Part shown: piece by piece, positions 9,246 to 16,019 of the stretch | Layout: every line of letters starts with the position of its first letter | How positions within the stretch are numbered: position 1 is the first letter of the stretch | From: Planctomycetota bacterium | Lineage (GTDB): Bacteria; Planctomycetota; Phycisphaerae; FEN-1346 | Length of the DNA: 21,132 nt | NCBI GenBank assembly: GCA_026386995.1 | Contig: JAPLMO010000194.1 | Location: forward strand, 1-21,132 | Direction: 5' to 3' | Notes under the pieces: generated by a model | The model's database searches: none | Told to the model about the DNA's origin: nothing | The model's input: the letters and a program-made list of their open reading frames with translations, nothing else | Position numbers and translations under genes: made by a program

Positions 9246-10781
9246 CTACTGGTGCCGAAGGGGGGAGTCGAACCCCCACCAGGGGTTATCCTGACGGGAT
9301 TTTGAATCCCGCGCGTCTGCCAGTTCCGCCACTCCGGCACTCACCAATTCGGGGCGTGATTCTACGGTCCTTTCCGCAGATTCGCAAGGGTTTACGTCGC
9401 GCGCGTCGCGCGGCGTCGCGCCGCTCTCGCGTTCGCCCAAGTTCGCCGAAGGTCGCTCTTTTCCGCCCGAAAGCGCCAAGCAACGCGCAAGACGGCGCGG
9501 GGTGGTTTCGGCCGCCCCGTCCTGCCCCACGGCCAAGGCCAGGGCCTCGCGGGGCGGGGCGGCCAGGTCGGGCAGCCCGGCCACGGCGTCCGACTCTTGG
9601 CCGATCAAGACGTGGCTGTATCGACTCATGGTCAGGTTGATATCCGAGTGCCGCATGAGGCTCTGTGCCACCTTCGGATGCGTGCCGGTTGCGGCCAAGA
9701 AACTCCCGCACGTGTGCCGCAAAGCGTGAAAGTCAACTACGCGCCCGGCGTCGTCTCGGTAGTCGATGCCGGCGGCGGCCAGGTCCCCCTTGAAGCCCCG
9801 GATTGTCCGGTCACGGTTCGGCAGGGCGAAGGCCGCCGCGTTGGGCATCTTGCCGGCCAGAAAGGCCCGCAGTTCGGCCGCCGTGTCGGCCCGCAGGGGC
9901 AGCACGTCGCGCCGCCTGTGCTTGGAGTAGGCCGCTTCAACCGTCACTGTGGGCTTGGGGCCTTCAAGGTCGAAACTCGCCCGCGTCAAACTCGCCAGTT
10001 CGCCGCGCCGCAGGCCGCTTTCCACGGCCAGGCGGTAAAGCGAGGCGCGCTCGGGGCCGGTCATGCCTGCCCGGTCGGGGCCGCCGCGGGTCTTGGTCAG
10101 CAGGCGGCGGACTTCATCCACGGTAAGCGCCCGCCGGTCGCGCCGGCAGTCGGTTCGGGCGTTCAGGCCGTCCAGGTAGGCAACGGGCGACTCGCCGGCC
10201 CGGCCGTCCTTGACCATCCAGCGGCAGAAGCCCTTGAAGGCCGTCAGGTAGTGGTTGAAACTCGCCGCGCCGATGCCGGCCTTGACGTGCCCCTTTTCAT
10301 CGGCCTTGTCGGCCCGCAGGTCATTCAGCACCGCCAGCACCTTGCTGGCCGTGATCTCGCTCCAGAAGGTAAGGCCGCAGCCGTTGACCACGCGCCGGAC
10401 GCGGGCGCAGGACTTCTCTACATGCTCGGCCGTGTTGCCCTTGGCCGCCAGGTACGCGCCGTAGTCGGTCACGTGTTCGGCCAGCGGCTTCATGCCCGCC
10501 GACTGCCGGCCGTCAAGGAAGCCCTGCCGCGCCAGCAGGGTTTGAAGGCGGCCGGGCAGCCCCTCAAGCCACTTCACCAAGGCCGGGTCGGGTATCTGCC
10601 CGGACCCCTTGAAGTTGACGAGGCGCACGAGTTGCCGGCCGAAGGCTTCCGTTGCCTTGGCGTCGGTGAAGCCCGGCACTCGCCGCAGGACGCCGGCGGC
10701 GTTGCGAAGTTCCACGTACCACTTGGCCGCGCGGCGAGTCTCGCCCGTCCGGTCACGGTAGGTCGGTTGAAAGACTCTCAT
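9246..10781 (-). CDS. int: Tyrosine recombinase integrase running into tRNA-Leu
   Basis: This 511-residue site-specific integrase has a SAM-like core-binding region (about 95-200) and a catalytic domain (about 215-395). Active-site residues are R258 (SGLRRGEL), K287, H352 and R355 (FHALRHTCGS), H378 (LMRHSD) and the nucleophile Y388 (MSRYSHV). After the catalytic domain comes a long tail. Its end, AGVAELADARDSKSRQ and onward, is encoded by the tRNA gene itself, with the stop TAG 2 bp past the CCA. In the other att copy the frame continues into a different, protein-like tail (15759-15953), which is probably the native end. The ATG overlaps the stop of the XRE gene (ATGA), so int is coupled to it and read from the promoter at 11048-11076. 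Confidence 0.93.
   Translation of the reverse strand: MRVFQPTYRDRTGETRRAAKWYVELRNAAGVLRRVPGFTDAKATEAFGRQLVRLVNFKGSGQIPDPALVKWLEGLPGRLQTLLARQGFLDGRQSAGMKPLAEHVTDYGAYLAAKGNTAEHVEKSCARVRRVVNGCGLTFWSEITASKVLAVLNDLRADKADEKGHVKAGIGAASFNHYLTAFKGFCRWMVKDGRAGESPVAYLDGLNARTDCRRDRRALTVDEVRRLLTKTRGGPDRAGMTGPERASLYRLAVESGLRRGELASLTRASFDLEGPKPTVTVEAAYSKHRRRDVLPLRADTAAELRAFLAGKMPNAAAFALPNRDRTIRGFKGDLAAAGIDYRDDAGRVVDFHALRHTCGSFLAATGTHPKVAQSLMRHSDINLTMSRYSHVLIGQESDAVAGLPDLAAPPREALALAVGQDGAAETTPRRLARCLALSGGKERPSANLGERESGATPRDARDVNPCESAERTVESRPELVSAGVAELADARDSKSRQDNPWWGFDSPLRHQ
9250..9338 (-). tRNA. tRNA-Leu(CAA)
   Basis: The 89-base gene folds as a class II tRNA with CCA encoded. Acceptor strands GCCGGAG and CTTCGGC pair, with discriminator A. 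The anticodon loop TTCAAAA sits on a CGGGA/TCCCG stem and gives anticodon CAA, which reads UUG. There is a long variable arm, and a GGGGG/CCCCC T-stem carries TTCGACT. It closely resembles the familiar enterobacterial leuX-type tRNA. The 5' half (9294-9338) is the att core of an integrated element, so the current 5' half and promoter region come from the element and the 3' half from the chromosome. Confidence 0.97.
9294..9340. repeat. Left attachment site within tRNA-Leu
   Basis: These 47 bp recur in direct orientation at 15954-16000 with one mismatch (9299 versus 15959). The 41 bp 9300-9340 are identical. They run from the tRNA anticodon arm to two bases upstream of its 5' end. Similarity ends abruptly on the right at 9341 versus 16001. 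Confidence 0.92.
9359..9387 (-). promoter_or_regulatory. Element-borne promoter for tRNA-Leu, inside int
   Basis: On the minus strand TTGCGA (9382-9387) and TAGAAT (9359-9364) are 17 bp apart, with the -10 ending 20 bp before the tRNA 5' end. The stranded native promoter at 16020-16048 has the same TAGAAT -10 and a nearly identical distance (21 bp) to its half-tRNA. The site lies in the integrase coding sequence. Confidence 0.7.
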
Positions 10782-11041
10782 GGCTTCATCCCTTTCTTCG
10801 GCTTCGGCCCGCGTTTCGCCGGCGGGGATACCCGCACCGGGCCGCGCGCCACAAGGTCAAGCCCCAGCACGTCGGCCACGGCGTCAAGGTTCGCCTGAGT
10901 CAACCCCACCTTGCCCGCCATGAACCGCGAGAAGGAAGCCTGATCAATGCCCGTTTCCATGCAGATTCGATAGCGGCTCGTGCCGGACGAATCCACGGCC
11001 CGCCGCACCTGTTCGCTCAGTTTCACTCGCTTGCGTTCCAT
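10778..11041 (-). CDS. XRE-family helix-turn-helix regulator
   Basis: This 87-residue protein contains a Cro/cI-type helix-turn-helix: RYRICMETGIDQASFSRFMA (about 23-42) followed by the third helix region LTQANLDAVADVLGLDL. A basic tail, PAKRGPKPKKGMKP, follows. Such proteins usually repress the genes of their own element. The -10 hexamer of a near-perfect promoter ends 6 bp before the ATG, leaving no room for a ribosome binding site, so the message is probably leaderless. The stop overlaps the integrase start, giving a two-gene regulator-integrase operon. Repeats at 11211-11284 may be its binding sites. Confidence 0.88.
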   Translation of the reverse strand: MERKRVKLSEQVRRAVDSSGTSRYRICMETGIDQASFSRFMAGKVGLTQANLDAVADVLGLDLVARGPVRVSPPAKRGPKPKKGMKP

Positions 11042-11047
11042 GGCGCT

Positions 11048-11076
11048 ATCCTACTCCACACTTGGTTTGCTGTCAA
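11048..11076 (-). promoter_or_regulatory. Near-consensus promoter of xre-int
   Basis: On the minus strand TTGACA (11071-11076) and TAGGAT (11048-11053) are 17 bp apart. The expected start, about 7 bp beyond the -10, falls on or next to the A of the XRE gene ATG at 11041. Confidence 0.85.
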
Positions 11077-11210
11077 GCACAATCCGGCCCATTGCCGGGT
11101 TTTTTTTCGGGTTTTCGCCGCCCTGCGGGCACGGCAAGCGCCCCCCCTGAAAAAGCGTGCTACGCCTTTTTTTCGCCTTTTTTCGTCCGCCCGCCCGCAA
11201 GCCGCCCGGC

Positions 11211-11284
11211 GCCGCCTTATAGGCGTTCACTTTGTCAAGTTTTCCCCCCGTGGCTCTCAGCCCTGCCGCCTTATAGGCTTTCAC
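11211..11284. repeat. Paired operator-like repeats upstream of xre
   Basis: Two direct 20-bp copies, GCCGCCTTATAGGC(G/T)TTCAC at 11211-11230 and 11265-11284, differ at one base and are 54 bp apart. Each contains the palindrome GCCTTATAGGC. The surrounding 11085-11333 region is non-coding, with runs of C, G, T and A. The sites could bind the XRE regulator or be remnants of a repeat expansion. Confidence 0.55.
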
Positions 11285-11333
11285 GGTTTTCGCCCCCCAT
11301 AAACGCGGCGGACCCGTTTTTTTGCCGTTTTTT

Positions 11334-12404
11334 TTACCCCTCCCCCCGCGCGGCTCCTGGGTCGTCCCGGCGCTCCTGGGACAGCACTCCGGCCGCGGGT
11401 CCGACTTCCGGCCAGTTCTCTGCCTGTGACCTGTAGCCAAGAATCTCGTCAATCATCTTCTGCTCGGCCTCCGTTCGACCCTTTGGTTTCTTCGGCCCGC
11501 AGAGTCCGTCCACCCAGCCGAACAGTTCCGTCAGCGTCTTGGCCTCACACTTCGACCAGAACGCCCGGCAGCGGCCGAGGAATGCCGCCGTCTTTTCGCC
11601 GATCTCCTGAATCCGGTCCCAAGGTTTGGCGCCGTCCAGTTTCTGGCTCTTGACGCCCCATGCGATCAATTGCGGGGTCGCTCCGAGTCTGAGGGCCTCG
11701 CCGATCCGGTCAAGGCAGGCGTCTCTGGCTGCGGCCGGCGGGTTACCGGAGAGGAAGGCATGGGCGATGATCTTGTCGATGTCGTTTTCCTTGCCGCCGC
11801 CGTTGCCGTTGCTGTTGCCGTTGCCGTTCTTACTTCTCTGCAAGACAGAGGGAGCGAGAGAATCCTTGCCGGCGGCAGTCTTCTCTCTCTCTTCTTGGTG
11901 TTCTTGGTTTTCTTGATCTTCTTGGTGTGTGCCAGGGCGGGCAGTAGTTCCTGTGCCACCTGTGGCAGTAGCCTTGGCAGTAGGCTTGGCAGTAGTTCCT
12001 GTGCCATCTTCGGCAGTAGCGCTACTGCCCGCCTTGGCAGTAGTGCCATGCTCGGCAGTACCGGCGGGGCGGTACTCCGGCGGCGGCCAGACGACCCAGC
12101 GCACGACCGCCTGCCCTTTGCCGTCTGCGGACCCGTACAGCCCAAGCCTCGCCAACTCCTTCAGGGCACGGTTGGTGTGGGGAATGTCCAAGTTCTGTCT
12201 TCCGTTCCGGTCAGTCGAGAACATGCCCGCATGCTCTGCGATCTGGCTTAGGCTTACTTCGTCGCGCTCCTTGCCGTAACCCCAGGTCAAGTCCGCCAGG
12301 GCGAGATACACGCGGATGACGGCCCAAGACAGGTCGCTTCTGGCCAGCAGTGCGGCCAGGTGGTCATGCCGTAGTCGCCAGAACCCGCCGTCCGAGTTGC
12401 TCAT
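11334..12404 (-). CDS. Phage O-like replication initiation protein
   Basis: This 356-residue protein resembles the replication protein O family of phages. Residues 8-92 fit its winged-helix domain, with LADLTWGYGKERDEVSLSQI and then IPHTNRALKELARLGLYGS. A long low-complexity linker follows: Thr/Ala/Gly-rich at 115-157, Gln/Glu-rich at 160-173 and Asn/Gly-rich at 192-204. The C-terminal domain (about 207-340) probably makes helicase or other contacts. In lambda, O binds iterons located in its own gene; the linker-coding DNA here also carries regular repeats. The start at 12404 has GGGAGG upstream. A longer frame from 12521 lacks a binding site. The function is inferred from the N-terminal match and layout; a transcriptional regulator is the alternative. 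Confidence 0.7.
   Translation of the reverse strand: MSNSDGGFWRLRHDHLAALLARSDLSWAVIRVYLALADLTWGYGKERDEVSLSQIAEHAGMFSTDRNGRQNLDIPHTNRALKELARLGLYGSADGKGQAVVRWVVWPPPEYRPAGTAEHGTTAKAGSSATAEDGTGTTAKPTAKATATGGTGTTARPGTHQEDQENQEHQEEREKTAAGKDSLAPSVLQRSKNGNGNSNGNGGGKENDIDKIIAHAFLSGNPPAAARDACLDRIGEALRLGATPQLIAWGVKSQKLDGAKPWDRIQEIGEKTAAFLGRCRAFWSKCEAKTLTELFGWVDGLCGPKKPKGRTEAEQKMIDEILGYRSQAENWPEVGPAAGVLSQERRDDPGAARGEG
11892..12060. repeat. Iteron-like repeats in the replication gene (possible origin)
   Basis: GGCAGTAG occurs at 11940, 11964, 11976, 11988, 12012 and 12036, with a 7-base version at 12054 and an inverted copy at 12022-12029. All direct spacings are 12, 24 or 18 bp. Copies at 12012 and 12022 form the palindrome GGCAGTAGCGCTACTGCC. 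A 19-bp longer unit is repeated at 11940 and 11988. Immediately to the left, four tandem 9-mers of TTCTTGGTG type (11892-11927) make a strand-asymmetric pyrimidine-rich tract. Iterons beside such a tract inside the initiator gene is the layout of the lambda origin. Confidence 0.6.
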
Positions 12405-12585
12405 TGCCGCCTGCCTCCCTTCCGGCAAAGGCCCGCGGCGCGAAAAGGTGGCCGCAGCAAGGGGTTTTTCGGCGCGGAAGGTTTTACGGGTAGGGTGGGC
12501 CTCACAAGAGCCTCCGCGCATCCATTTGCTTGCGCCTGCCCATGCCGGGAAGATTCCAGGCCCATCGTAGAGGGTGTCTCAGGCG

Positions 12586-12870
12586 TCACCGGCAATCCTC
12601 CATCGGCGTCTGCGCGTCGGGCATGGCCGCCGGGTCAAGAAACCGCGCCAGCGGTCCCTTGCGGACCGTGGCGGGCCGCTTGCCGAAGCGGAAAGGCCAG
12701 AGGGCACAGCGCGTTGAGTTCACGCCGTCCAGAGTGCAGAACTTGACCGCCTTGAAACTTCCGCAGCAGCAGTCCAGGCACTTCGCGCGGATCGCCGCCA
12801 AGGGCGATGTGGCCGCGCGGTCGTGGTGCGGGGCCTTGACGGCATCGGGTGAGGCTGGTAGGGTAGGCAT
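12586..12870 (-). CDS. Small Cys-rich phage-type protein
   Basis: This 94-residue protein has a conserved-looking centre: IRAKCLDCCCGSFKAVKFCT, then NSTRCALWPFRFGKRP, with cysteines at about 31, 34, 35, 36, 45 and 55 that could bind zinc. Small proteins with a CLxCxGG...V+.C....C.LWP+R.G+ pattern are, from memory, frequent in prophages and integrated elements, with no known activity. It lies upstream of the replication gene on the same strand, separated by 181 bp. A GC-rich hairpin lies just before its start. Confidence 0.7.
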   Translation of the reverse strand: MPTLPASPDAVKAPHHDRAATSPLAAIRAKCLDCCCGSFKAVKFCTLDGVNSTRCALWPFRFGKRPATVRKGPLARFLDPAAMPDAQTPMEDCR

Positions 12871-12887
12871 GTTGAAGGTTCCCTTAA

Positions 12888-12913
12888 GGCCCGGCGTCGG
12901 CGGACGCCGGGCC
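12888..12913. promoter_or_regulatory. Perfect GC-rich hairpin between two small genes
   Basis: An 11-bp stem, GGCCCGGCGTC / GACGCCGGGCC, encloses a GGCG loop in the 54-bp gap between the AlpA-like and Cys-rich genes. No T-run follows on the minus strand, so pausing, mRNA processing or protection is more likely than termination. Confidence 0.5.
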
Positions 12914-12924
12914 GCGTTCTTGGA

Positions 12925-13191
12925 TTACGCGCCGCCGCGCGTACGGTTTTCCTTCATGGCCTGCCAGCGGTCACGGCCTGGGCAGCCCGCCGCGATCCAC
13001 GCGGCCAGTTCCTCGCGCCGCCACAGCACGCGCCGCCCCAAGCGCACCGGCAGGGGCACGCGGCCCGACGAGTGCAGTTGAAGCCAGAGCGTGCGGCCGA
13101 TTCCGGCCAGCCGCGCGGCGGTTGCGGCGGACACCAGAAGCGGCGGGGCGGCAGGCGGGCACAGGGCGGGGGTGGTCGGGGCATCACTCAT
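12925..13191 (-). CDS. AlpA/excisionase-like DNA-binding protein
   Basis: This 88-residue protein has a MerR/AlpA-type winged helix-turn-helix: LLVSAATAARLAGIGRTLWL, then SGRVPLPVRLGRRVLWRREE and LAAWIAAGCPGRD. Small proteins of this type are recombination directionality factors or regulators of integrases. The ATG at 13191 has GGAAGGGG upstream and overlaps the stop of the preceding 56-residue gene (ATGA). A longer frame to 13326 would cover that gene and is unlikely. A role in excision is inferred from the family and from the integrase in the same element. Confidence 0.82.
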   Translation of the reverse strand: MSDAPTTPALCPPAAPPLLVSAATAARLAGIGRTLWLQLHSSGRVPLPVRLGRRVLWRREELAAWIAAGCPGRDRWQAMKENRTRGGA

Positions 13192-13358
13192 GGGCGCGGC
13201 CCCTTCCCAAGCGCGGGCAATGGTCGTGGGCGCGGTCTTGACCGCCGGGCCAGTTCGCGGCGCAGCGCCAGGACGGATGCCGAGTCCGGCCCCAGCGCTT
13301 TTTCCGTCGCCCGCAGAGAGCGCCACAGTTCGCGGGTTGAAAGTTCGGTAATCTTCAT
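13188..13358 (-). CDS. Small coupled protein, function unknown
   Basis: A 56-residue frame begins MKITELSTRELWRSLRATEK, continues GPDSASVLALRRELARRS, and ends in an Arg/Pro-rich tail. The first 40 residues look like two amphipathic helices. The TGA stop overlaps the ATG of the AlpA-like gene, so the two are translationally coupled, the main argument for it being real. No clear ribosome binding site precedes the ATG. A palindrome lies immediately upstream. I recognise no family. Confidence 0.65.
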   Translation of the reverse strand: MKITELSTRELWRSLRATEKALGPDSASVLALRRELARRSRPRPRPLPALGKGPRP

Positions 13359-13360
13359 GG

Positions 13361-13375
13361 CCGTCAATATGACGG
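13361..13375. promoter_or_regulatory. Operator-like palindrome CCGTCA-ATA-TGACGG
   Basis: Perfect 6-bp arms around ATA lie 2 bp upstream of the 56-residue gene start. Size and position suit a dimeric regulator such as the XRE or AlpA-like protein, or translational control through an RNA hairpin. The regulator is not known. Confidence 0.5.
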
Positions 13376-13399
13376 CAGAGACCGTTGGCGTGTTGTCAG

Positions 13400-13515
13400 C
13401 GGACGCTGGACGGACGCCGCCGGACGCTTGAAAACGGCAGAAGCGGGGTCAAGAATGCGGGTTTTTGGGGAAAGATTTTTTACGTCGGACGTTTGGCGGA
13501 CGCTTTGACGGACGC
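13400..13515. repeat. Two phased clusters of CGGACG(C) repeats
   Basis: CGGACGC starts at 13400, 13411 and 13421. A second trio starts at 13486 (CGGACG only), 13497 and 13509. Spacing inside clusters is 10-12 bp, about one helical turn. The T/A/G-rich stretch 13461-13481 lies between clusters. The second trio covers the 3' end of the 231-residue gene. This resembles cooperative binding sites for an accessory protein or an origin-like element. Confidence 0.6.
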
Positions 13516-14175
13516 CTTTAGCGCCTCGATTACGGCCCGCACCTTCCCAACATGGTAGAGAAACGTCGGTTGCTGTCGAGCGTGCTCGGGCACTTCCGCG
13601 AAGCAAGTCAAGTCTCGGCGGCGCAGCCGTTCAAGCCTCTTACGCAACGCCTCAGCGGGCACTCCGAAGGCTTTGGACAACTCCGCAACGCTCATCTTGG
13701 CATCGTCGGAAACGGTCGTGGGGGTCACGGCCGGGGCTTTCCGGCCGCCTGCGGTCTTGCCGCCGCTTGCGTGAACGTCGGCGGCTTCATGTCGCGGCGC
13801 TGCCACGGCCCCGGCCTTGTCAAATTCGTCGGCCCAGCGCTCCAGTTCGTCGGGAAACCCCACCGGGACCGGACTTCCGCACAGTTGCGGCTGCGTGAAT
13901 GCCCCCCACCAGCCTGAATACTTCCCGAAATCTTTGCGCCCTCGTTCGGCGGTGATTTCTGAGAGTTTATCCAGAGCGCGGGCTGCCCCCCCGTGGCAAC
14001 CCCATCTGTTGCTCGCATCTGTGATGATGTCGAAGTGGCGCGTCGCCAAGTCAAGGGCGGTTCGCGTAGCCTCAAGGGCTTCCGGCGAATTGGCGCCCTG
14101 GAACTTTCCCCAAGCCAGTAGGGCCTCTGCAACTTTGCGTAGTGCAGCCGCTTTGCGAGTGGCATCATTCGACAT
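13480..14175 (-). CDS. Element protein with C-terminal HTH-like region
   Basis: This 231-residue protein begins MSNDATRKAAALRKVAEALL and is helical throughout the first 80 residues. It has a Gly/Trp-containing middle (GKYSGWWGAFTQPQLCG), an Ala/Thr/Pro linker (about 122-158) and a C-terminal segment MSVAELSKAFGVPAEALRKR followed by basic residues, which looks like a helix-turn-helix. It is the first gene of the leftward element operon, with a good promoter at 14292-14320 and GAAAGGG before the ATG. A regulatory or DNA-binding role is likely, but I do not recognise the family. Confidence 0.75.
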   Translation of the reverse strand: MSNDATRKAAALRKVAEALLAWGKFQGANSPEALEATRTALDLATRHFDIITDASNRWGCHGGAARALDKLSEITAERGRKDFGKYSGWWGAFTQPQLCGSPVPVGFPDELERWADEFDKAGAVAAPRHEAADVHASGGKTAGGRKAPAVTPTTVSDDAKMSVAELSKAFGVPAEALRKRLERLRRRDLTCFAEVPEHARQQPTFLYHVGKVRAVIEALKASVKASAKRPT

Positions 14176-14291
14176 GGCTTACCCTTTCGATTCGGGCCGG
14201 TCGGCCGGGGGCGGCGGCAAAGGGTAGAGAACCGCCGGCCCGCGGCCGGACCGCCACGGCGGATGATCAGTCCGCCGCTTGATTGCAGCCC

Positions 14292-14320
14292 ATCATAACC
14301 CGGCCCGGCCAGACCGTCAA
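14292..14320 (-). promoter_or_regulatory. Leftward promoter of the element operon
   Basis: On the minus strand TTGACG (14315-14320) and TATGAT (14292-14297) are 17 bp apart. Transcription toward the 231-residue gene would carry a leader of about 110 bases. It is arranged back to back with the rightward promoter at 14344. Confidence 0.75.
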
Positions 14321-14343
14321 CGCATGCCCGGCAGGAGAAAAAT

Positions 14344-14372
14344 TTGCATCTGCCGGTTTCGTGATGTATAGT
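14344..14372 (+). promoter_or_regulatory. Rightward promoter of the PEP-CTERM leader
   Basis: TTGCAT (14344-14349) and TATAGT (14367-14372) are 17 bp apart. The predicted start, near 14379, coincides with the first bases of the closing stem of the structured leader. Confidence 0.8.
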
Positions 14373-14377
14373 TCCCC

Positions 14378-14463
14378 TGCTGAGGGTAGCCGGGCCGGGT
14401 CGCTTTCGGGAGTGAGCGGCCGCAGCCCGTCCTCAGCAAAGACAATCCGAATCTGTAACGCTT
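14378..14463 (+). ncRNA. Structured leader RNA, possible riboswitch or attenuator
   Basis: Predicted pairings nest within each other: TGCTGAGG (14378-14385) with CCTCAGCA (14431-14438), CGGGC (14391-14395) with GCCCG (14425-14429), and CGCT (14401-14404) with AGCG (14415-14418). A single-stranded stretch (14439-14463) leads to an intrinsic terminator, then the gene. This is the order of a ligand-sensing leader. I could not match it to a named riboswitch class, including the c-di-GMP classes. It could instead be a free small RNA. Confidence 0.55.
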
Positions 14464-14499
14464 GGGCGATCTCCGGGGGAAACGGAGACCGCCCTTTTT
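14464..14499 (+). terminator. Intrinsic terminator in the PEP-CTERM leader
   Basis: GGGCG-A-TCTCCG pairs with CGGAGA-C-CGCCC around a GGGGGAA-type loop and is followed by TTTTTCTTT. This is a strong plus-strand terminator. It ends 33 bp before the ATG of the PEP-CTERM gene. Its left arm contains ATCTCC, also complementary to GGAGAT (14522-14527) in the ribosome binding site. Confidence 0.88.
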
Positions 14500-14532
14500 C
14501 TTTGGGACAGCATGGCATAAAGGAGATTGGCG

Positions 14533-15681
14533 ATGATCAGCGTAAAGAACGTGACGAGGGCGGCGGTGGTAAGCGTTGTGGTTCTGGCGATGGCCGCCAA
14601 TGTGTCTTGGGCCACTGTGGCAACGTTTCAGGGCTTGGGCGATCTTCCCGGCGGGCAGTTCTGGAGCGAAGCCCTGGGCGTCTCCGCTAATGGGAAAGTT
14701 GCGACGGGCGCCAGCGTGTCGGCACAAGGAACAGTGGCGGTATCATGGACGGCGGCTGGTGGCTTGGTCAGTCTGGGCTTGACGCCCAGCGGGCTTCAGA
14801 CCGCCGCTTATGACATCTCCCCGGACGGCTCATCCATTGTCGGTTCTACCGCGCCCGTAGCCGTAGAACAAGCCTTTCTGTGGACGCAATCGCAGGGCTA
14901 CGTGATGCTCGGTTACCTGTCCGCCGGTCACACCTACAGCCGAGGACACGCCGTATCCAACGGCGGGACCATTGTCGTTGGGGAGAGCGGAGTGAGCAAG
15001 TCAGCGGATGGTCTGGAGGCTTTCCGCTGGACGCAGGCTACGGGGATGGTTTCCCTGGGGTCTCTGGGCGACAAAGGACACTTCGGAACCGCGCACGACA
15101 TGTCTGGCGACGGGACGGTGATCGTTGGCCAGGGCCTTTCCACAAGCGGCTACGAGGCGTTCCGGTGGACGGCTGCAACGGGAATGTTGGGGCTTGGGGA
15201 CTTACCTGGGGGCGGGTTTCATAGCAATGCGTATGGCGTCTCAGCCGACGGAAAAGTCGTGGTTGGACAGGGTGAATCTGCCTTTGGACAGGAGGCTTCT
15301 CGGTGGACGGCGGCAGGAGGGATGGTCGGACTGGGAGACTTTGCGGGGGGCGCCTTCAAGAGTAGAGCGATGGCCGCATCTGCGGACGGTTCGGTCGTGG
15401 TCGGCTATGGTACGTCTGGTTCGGGGATGGACGCTTCCGTTTGGGACGCGGTACAGGGGATGCAGAGCGTGAAGGGCATTCTTGTCAGCGAATACGGATT
15501 GGACCTGACGGGGTGGACTTTGCTCGAAGCCTGGGGCGTATCCGCAGACGGCAAGACCCTTGCCGGATACGGGACAAATCCCGCTGGGAATATCGAGGGT
15601 TGGGTTGCCACCTTGCCCGAGCCCGCCACGCTCTCGCTGTTGGCCCTGGGCGGTCTTATGGCGCTCCGGCACCGCCGGTAG
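14533..15681 (+). CDS. PEP-CTERM surface protein with HAF-type repeats
   Basis: This 382-residue exported protein has a signal peptide (about 5-28, ending ANVSWA) and about seven imperfect repeats of 45-50 residues. Each follows the scheme GLGDLPGG...A.GVSADGKVVVG...G.EAFRWTAA.GM, the HAF repeat pattern, which probably forms beta-propeller-like blades. The C-terminus LPEPATLSLLALGGLMALRH is a textbook PEP-CTERM sorting signal: PEP motif, hydrophobic helix, then Arg-rich end. It should be processed by an exosortase and displayed or released. AGGAG precedes the ATG at 14533; a TTG two codons earlier is less likely. It is the only plus-strand gene of the integrative element and appears to be cargo. 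No exosortase is encoded in the window, so the host must supply it. Confidence 0.92.
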   Translation: MISVKNVTRAAVVSVVVLAMAANVSWATVATFQGLGDLPGGQFWSEALGVSANGKVATGASVSAQGTVAVSWTAAGGLVSLGLTPSGLQTAAYDISPDGSSIVGSTAPVAVEQAFLWTQSQGYVMLGYLSAGHTYSRGHAVSNGGTIVVGESGVSKSADGLEAFRWTQATGMVSLGSLGDKGHFGTAHDMSGDGTVIVGQGLSTSGYEAFRWTAATGMLGLGDLPGGGFHSNAYGVSADGKVVVGQGESAFGQEASRWTAAGGMVGLGDFAGGAFKSRAMAASADGSVVVGYGTSGSGMDASVWDAVQGMQSVKGILVSEYGLDLTGWTLLEAWGVSADGKTLAGYGTNPAGNIEGWVATLPEPATLSLLALGGLMALRHRR

Positions 15682-15758
15682 TTCACCGCCGGATTTGCCG
15701 CATTTGCCCAAGTGCGTACCGGCGTCTGGCCCGGCGTGCGGCGTCACTTCGCGGGTGT

Positions 15759-15992
15759 CTAGCCCGCCGCCCGCACCATCGCCACGATGCCCGCCCTGAG
15801 CGCTTCGGGCAGGGCCGGCCAAGCGGAAACGACGGCGGCCAGGTCGGGGGCTTTGGGGCCGATTTCAGCGGCAAAAGCGCCAAGCAGAGCGCCAAGCGCC
15901 TTTGGGGGGGTGTTGTAAGTGCCTGTGTTTTCAGGTACTTGCGCCGGAGTCATACGGGTTTTTGAATCCCGCGCGTCTGCCAGTTCCGCCAC
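15759..15992 (-). pseudogene. Detached C-terminal tail of the integrase
   Basis: An open frame runs from the att copy leftward to a TAG at 15759. It shares AELADARDSK with the integrase frame through the att core, then diverges into TRMTPAQVPENTGTY and continues ALGALLGAFAAEIG, DLAAVVSAW, PALPEALRAG and IVAMVRAAG. The composition and helical pattern look like real protein. As the two att copies are exactly 6660 bp apart (a multiple of 3), excision would join the integrase body to these 66 residues and give 560 residues in total. In the integrated state this piece has no proper start and is probably silent. Confidence 0.75.
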
Positions 15993-16000
15993 TCCGGCAC
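15954..16000. repeat. Right attachment site (5' half of tRNA-Leu)
   Basis: This direct copy of 9294-9340 has one mismatch. It holds the tRNA 5' half without the variable arm, T-arm or acceptor 3' strand, so it cannot make a tRNA. The original chromosomal upstream sequence of the tRNA follows from 16001. Confidence 0.92.
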
Positions 16001-16019
16001 GAACCTGATACGGCTGAAG

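Follow-up and report, generated by a model that had tools for sequence, protein, structure and literature searches.

An attachment site inside an integrase gene is already known from phage Mx8 and from SSV-type archaeal elements (PMC4383910, PMC6070905, PMC8371274). In Mx8, a phage of Myxococcus xanthus, the phage attachment site (attP) lies within the integrase gene (int), and integration gives int a new 3′ end without inactivating it; phage Mx9 reportedly works on a similar principle (both from PMC6070905). Islander spares such integrases from a filter and names Mx8 and SSV in this context (PMC4383910). On the archaeal side, PMC8371274 gives PF16795 (Phage_integr_3) as a domain of suicidal integrases and terms self-disrupting recombinases exclusively archaeal. 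For Planctomycetota, no description was found in the titles and abstract openings of the papers listed on planctomycete integrases, tRNA islands, attP in integrase genes or bacterial suicidal integrases, in a search with most subscription journals outside its coverage. Here we analyze an integrated element of ∼6.7 kb in the 21,132-nt contig JAPLMO010000194.1 of a Planctomycetota bacterium (assembly GCA_026386995.1), the whole of which is called the window below. On the reading that we consider likely, the attachment region of this element lies inside int, between the catalytic domain and a C-terminal tail, and the loss of the tail upon integration would favour the integrated state.

The window integrase has the R..HxxR..Y residues of a tyrosine recombinase. 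Pfam Phage_integrase (PF00589) matches residues 219–391 (E-value 1.3e-14), with GLRRGEL at 256, HALRHT at 352 and the tyrosine at 388. In the Pfam scans of this protein and of its relative L014, PF00589 was the only match at E ≤ 0.1, and PF16795 was absent. The catalytic domain, R..HxxR..Y included, lies entirely ahead of the attachment (att) core, in agreement with the original prediction that integration exchanges a tail located after Tyr388. The two core copies form a 52-nt repeat of 94% identity with a spacing of 6660 bp, and their 41-bp identical block terminates in the anticodon loop of tRNA-Leu(CAA). ARAGORN called tRNA-Leu both in the joined empty site and at the int end of the element; the tail end gave no tRNA call. 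As had been proposed, the int frame crosses the core and reads through the tRNA gene; the stop codon (9248–9246) starts 2 nt beyond the CCA. Past the second core, the int phase stays open into an orphan tail (15953–15759) of 64 codons followed by TAG, rather than the 66 codons initially counted. The 496 residues up to and through the core and the 64 tail residues add up to the 560-residue integrase that had been foreseen upon rejoining. Int and the tRNA are read in the same sense here, and the element swaps the 5′ flank of the tRNA gene (9250–9338), so transcription of the tRNA must come from the int side; maturation of the tRNA could then cleave the int message ahead of its stop codon.

The same arrangement was found in other loci. 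We compared 60 regions (59 distinct, with L163 entered twice), hand-picked from matches to a profile of the tail, partly by the room left on the contig. Among the 31 loci with an int, an att repeat and an orphan tail, window included, the core is inside int and joined to the tail in phase in 30, ambiguous in one and out of phase in none; by chance, one third per locus would be expected in phase, for loci of which a few are related (e.g., L151 and L200). The proposal that the attachment site is inside int thus holds beyond the window. In a first set of 50 unfused tails, from which L148 (a duplicate of L048) and L162 (duplicating a tail of L161) were omitted, 31 had a downstream repeat; 27 of these repeats were in an int frame, all 27 in phase, and four came without a recognised int. 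The remaining 19 had no repeat in the available stretch, with two tails shared by L003 and L169 counted twice each. Another 21 unfused tails yielded four in-phase cases and one repeat lacking a recognised int; for the other 16, no repeat was seen.

Under a stricter rule, requiring the repeat to overlap a tRNA called by ARAGORN, a tRNA was found for 29 of the 31 loci, and 28 of these were in phase. L179 and L182 have no tRNA call, and their in-phase status comes from the repeat test. In L152 and L160, the top repeats proved under this rule to be arm repeats, described below; the true core of L152 is in phase, and a 2-nt indel within the displaced fragment of L160 leaves its phase ambiguous. A version of the test with a single integrase profile placed all 20 distinct loci with repeat scores of at least 25 in phase; as for shorter repeats, the 13-bp one of L159 was in phase, unlike the 16-bp one of L160, and 11 matching bp in L147 were put down to chance. 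L178 has an exact 48-bp repeat, in phase. By appearance, the L159 site is tandem or rearranged, and the L166 repeat is not at a tRNA.

The original prediction stressed that the window cores are a multiple of three apart. The spacing is as given, but its relevance is not borne out: the core spacings among relatives are 0, 1 and 2 mod 3, and phase is kept in each case. A multiple-of-three spacing as a requirement was therefore rejected; what decides is how the core is phased in the individual frames. The targets of the 29 loci with a called tRNA comprise 14 tRNA types (His via L160 only) and 21 anticodons, with int antisense to the tRNA in 24 loci and sense in five (the window, L001, L081, L158, and L176). 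According to ARAGORN, the target in L183 (10567–10663) is a selenocysteine tRNA gene.

The orphan tail has a conserved part that reads roughly PDLAxVVxAWPxLPxxIRxxIxAMVxA and probably forms two helices, judging by the pattern. At E ≤ 1e-3, its profile matches in at least 100 of 392 Planctomycetota genomes, a lower bound as at most 17 candidates were scored per genome; most of the matches listed are in frames shorter than 160 amino acids (aa). At E ≤ 0.05, it matches in six of seven genomes of another set, which shares G001 with the first. One bin, G006 (the genome of L003), has nine tail matches at E ≤ 0.05, which suggests many elements or remnants. Planctomycetales bacterium ZRK34 (CP050848) has six, and its locus L035 shows int, core and tail clearly. 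The window tail itself has no match in Pfam or PHROGs, and a protein search with the tail region returned, out of 1286 candidates, P0005 itself alone at E ≤ 0.001.

The tail evolves as a protein. The proportion of nonsynonymous differences (pN) was below that of synonymous ones (pS) in 19 of 19 tail pairs, which had been selected for an aa identity of 0.55 or more, a choice that lowers pN/pS; codon positions 1, 2, and 3 had 183, 139, and 307 differences. The same was seen in all 14 pairs chosen by similarity of the integrases (192, 143, and 250 differences), a comparison that required a detectable tail and aligned the tails in register on the conserved Trp. Over 378 pairs, mean aa identity was 0.40 in the tail, 0.15 in the 60 residues ahead of the core, and 0.29 in the catalytic part. 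By these codon patterns, the tail is under selection as a protein; its conservation, the anatomy of the locus and the phase of the core are established at the level of sequence comparison.

Integrases that are not split were found as well. Of 7999 candidates scored in a protein search for relatives, 2002 matched at E ≤ 1e-5. Among the 120 relatives listed, many end in tRNA-like peptides from various tRNAs in both orientations (by eye, uncounted), and three match the tail profile: P0005, P0076, and P0072. P0005 and P0076 are unsplit, with a tRNA-like core and then the tail. L014 encodes an unsplit 579-aa frame with core and tail, and no tRNA lies closer than 400 bp to its end; L188 is also unsplit, with core and tail, in a 390-aa open frame that begins inside the catalytic part, and no tRNA was called within 1.5 kb on either side. 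In these four homologues, the tail comes straight after a core that resembles a tRNA, as the original prediction anticipated. The L014 contig is labelled Paceibacterota and carries a planctomycete-type integrase; the label is probably a binning error or reflects host transfer. P0072 has the tail without a tRNA-derived core in between, and the L078 integrase has a tail-like stretch at its end (by eye) and no tRNA overlap. Both could be the ancestral form, or could have lost attP via recombination between the arms. In P0002, an integrase 75% identical to that of the window, the same kind of tRNA-Leu core seems, by eye, to be read in another frame, so the core is not bound to a single reading frame. 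A second, more distant integrase group (L149, L150, L152, L164, L182, and L184) has the same layout. In phage and plasmid collections (70 and 21 records), integrases were below 60% identity and none covered 80% of the query. Overlap with a tRNA gene was seen for 45 of the 68 integrase open reading frames (ORFs) with a complete 3′ end from the family loci and the window, compared to seven among 589 other ORFs that reach 300 aa or more.

A short element-specific direct repeat is shared, across the 31 loci, by the two stretches that separate the core from the catalytic domain and from the tail. Best scores averaged 17.7 when both stretches came from one locus, 8.4 when loci were mismatched, and 8.2 in inverted orientation. 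For 23 of the 31 loci, the own pairing outscored each of the 30 mismatched ones, and none of 10,000 permutations reached the observed sum. A tandem repeat (score of at least 6) is present in 22 loci, with a 12-bp period in 21 of them. The first arm typically ends ∼125 bp ahead of the core, and the second starts ∼50 bp beyond it, so that direct-repeat sites stand on both sides of the core, as in a lambda-type attP. In the window, the P arm matches the P′ arm over 19 bp. The flanking repeats share a reading frame in just 15 of the 31 loci, a count made with the L152 and L160 cores mis-set (the repeat scores use the corrected cores). With the frame kept so rarely, the repeats look like DNA sites. 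The explanation of the repeated peptides around the core as protein repeats was rejected for the same reason, the matches being element-specific DNA repeats. We infer that the flanking repeats are arm-type sites, to which Int would bind; arms and core together would then make up a whole attP within the int frame.

Given this anatomy, the element probably works as follows. In the circular form, the order would be the catalytic domain, P-arm sites ∼130 bp before the core, the tRNA-derived core, P′-arm sites ∼60 bp after it, and the tail. When the element inserts on the anticodon-loop side of tRNA-Leu, the P arm stays with int at the left attachment site (attL), whereas the P′ arm ends up at the right one (attR) together with the tail. 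The prophage Int keeps all catalytic residues and gains a tRNA-encoded end, and excision would recreate the tailed Int. The tail may influence recombination in the circular state: the tailed Int would drive integration, and the tailless one would be less active or biased. Loss of the tail would then stabilise the integrated state and leave excision to Int plus an excisionase, making a switch that favours integration plausible. In Mx8, excision is reportedly left to Int and excisionase, and the prophage form of Int is said to be less active, which would fit a bias toward the integrated state. More tentatively, with somewhat under even confidence, we suggest a phylum-wide integrase class with a complete translated attP, arms and core, between catalytic domain and tail, in which the C-terminus records the integration state and thereby sets the direction of recombination, the tailed enzyme being suited to integration and the tRNA-tailed one not, and which arose independently of Mx8 and uses ∼14 tRNA types.

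Several observations weigh against the main reading. No att repeat was present in the available stretch for 35 of the 71 unfused tail matches, and five more had a repeat and no recognised int ORF. The int frame is incomplete in two of the 31 loci (L055, 314 aa; L194, 195 aa). Moreover, 23 of the 68 family integrases overlap no tRNA, L014, L003, L028, L030, and L032 among them; the L003 int has a masked base within its 3′ part. The integrases of L028, L030, and L032 stop ahead of a nearby tRNA-Arg(tct), before the core, which means that the layout is not universal. Homologues ending before the core, which the original prediction named as grounds for abandoning it, do therefore exist, as a minority. 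The L028 and L030 integrases end just past a motif similar to the L014 P arm. As for the arms, the second site of the window P arm is imperfect, and one mismatched locus scores equal to the window's own pairing. Finally, the tail profile had one match only among Protein Data Bank structures, at E = 0.99.

The best surviving alternative, which we regard as a real if lesser possibility, is that attP sits in int merely as part of a compact module: the tail would help the circular-state enzyme, and its loss would be a tolerated by-product with no regulatory role. The linker that holds arms and core indeed diverges fast (identity 0.15), the core-encoded amino acids simply follow the tRNA used, and integrases stopping before the core exist. 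Nevertheless, 30 of 31 loci keep the tail in phase, and it is selected as a protein, so the two forms of the enzyme differ by a conserved part.

Suicidal integration of the SSV kind, with the integrated Int dead and excision requiring a complete integrase from elsewhere, seems improbable. Integration does cut the int frame, as in archaeal suicidal integrases; yet, according to PMC8371274, SSV types split Int(N) from Int(C), with the catalytic domain in Int(C), whereas the window domain is intact and wholly ahead of the core. Because the integrated form keeps its catalytic residues, SSV-type inactivation was rejected. The likeness to SSV integrases that had been suggested is correct for an att site within int, and Mx8, with the catalytic part intact, is the closer precedent.

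Still less probable, in our estimate, is that attR expresses the orphan tail as a small protein in its own right, perhaps one that regulates the prophage Int. The window tail opens with ATG (15953–15951) directly past the repeat, contrary to the earlier statement that it has no start of its own, and 26 of 29 orphan tails have some ATG, GTG or TTG after the core and ahead of the conserved Trp. However, an in-frame ATG between the core and the conserved part is found in only six of the 29, compared to 16 and three in the other two frames (the 16 being in frame +1), and a Shine–Dalgarno-like sequence with a start in only three; start positions vary by locus, and no conserved start codon precedes the tail in these 29. 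A separate tail gene was rejected on this survey. Chance read-through, in which GC-rich DNA (the window looks GC-rich by eye and has 122 ORFs of at least 60 aa) leaves long frames open and the tail is accidental, receives practically no weight, being already refuted in our view by the phase, genome and codon tests: no locus is clearly out of phase, the tail is widespread, and codon positions are biased.

The table lists these features and the other genes of the element. The protein at 14527–15681 (+) is repeat-rich, looks secreted and is transcribed opposite to the other element genes; it is likely cargo.

Table. Features of the integrated element, in window coordinates (HTH, helix-turn-helix).
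Feature	Position	Strand	Remarks
int, integrated (attL) form	9246..10781	-	511-aa tyrosine integrase; last residues read from att core and tRNA-Leu
tRNA-Leu(CAA)	9250..9338	-	Target gene restored by the 5′ half carried on the element; read through by int, sense
att core, int end (attL)	9294..9345	-	52-nt repeat; identical block 9300–9340
Candidate P arm-type site	9470..9488	-	In int frame, 129 bp ahead of core repeat; part of repeat D4
Cro/C1-type HTH protein, candidate repressor	10778..11041	-	Directly upstream of int; Pfam matches below cut-off
Phage replication protein O-like	11334..12521	-	Pfam and NCBIfam matches below cut-off
HTH_17/excisionase-like small protein, candidate recombination directionality factor	12925..13326	-	Weak matches
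HTH-containing element protein	13480..14175	-	Weak match
Cargo-like repeat protein	14527..15681	+	Adjoins attR; weak PEP-CTERM match
Orphan C-terminal tail of int	15759..15953	-	64 codons and stop; conserved part ∼30 aa
Candidate P′ arm-type sites	15874..15897	-	Two 10-bp copies, 12 bp apart (15876–15885, 15888–15897), in orphan-tail frame
att core, tail end (attR)	15954..16005	-	Displaced tRNA-Leu 5′ half; identical block 15960–16000

A mechanism known from individual myxophages appears to be a common layout across a bacterial phylum, with a conserved and separable tail, and integration that cuts the integrase's own frame is not confined to archaea. As two natural forms of one enzyme exist, the question of integrase directionality becomes testable. 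Core phase and flanking repeats together provide a sequence test that maps element ends and attP sites, and many odd integrase C-termini are explained as translated tRNA.

Compared to described systems, the element resembles the islands with anticodon-loop cores in Islander in that its half-tRNA core ends at the anticodon loop and an intact tRNA is restored. It differs in displacing the 5′ half, a 5′ fragment being reported for 159 of 3919 islands in PMC4383910, and in that the core is also protein-coding. In mycobacteriophage integration-dependent immunity (the subject of PMC4557955), integration reportedly alters the C-terminus of a protein whose gene holds attP as well; that gene encodes the repressor, whereas in the present element attP is in int and the HTH protein has a gene of its own. 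With SSV-type elements, the window element shares an att site within the integrase gene and the division of this gene upon integration; there the gene is broken and its catalytic part separated, whereas here the catalytic part is intact with a new end.

Mx8 is similar in having a tyrosine integrase, an attP core in the int frame and an int 3′ end replaced upon integration. Still, Mx8 Int has no BLASTP similarity to the window integrase (best E-value 3.0) and no match to the tail hidden Markov model. Moreover, a two-sided arm repeat is not evident in Mx8 by the same kind of scan, although a tandem 11-bp repeat is present ahead of the candidate core, and here the tail is conserved, the tRNA targets are many, and a whole group of elements is involved. 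What is new, relative to these systems, are the element-specific direct repeats flanking the core, mostly as two sites 12 bp apart, which place arms and core within the int frame. The planctomycete layout looks like an independent, wider version of the Mx8 phenomenon.

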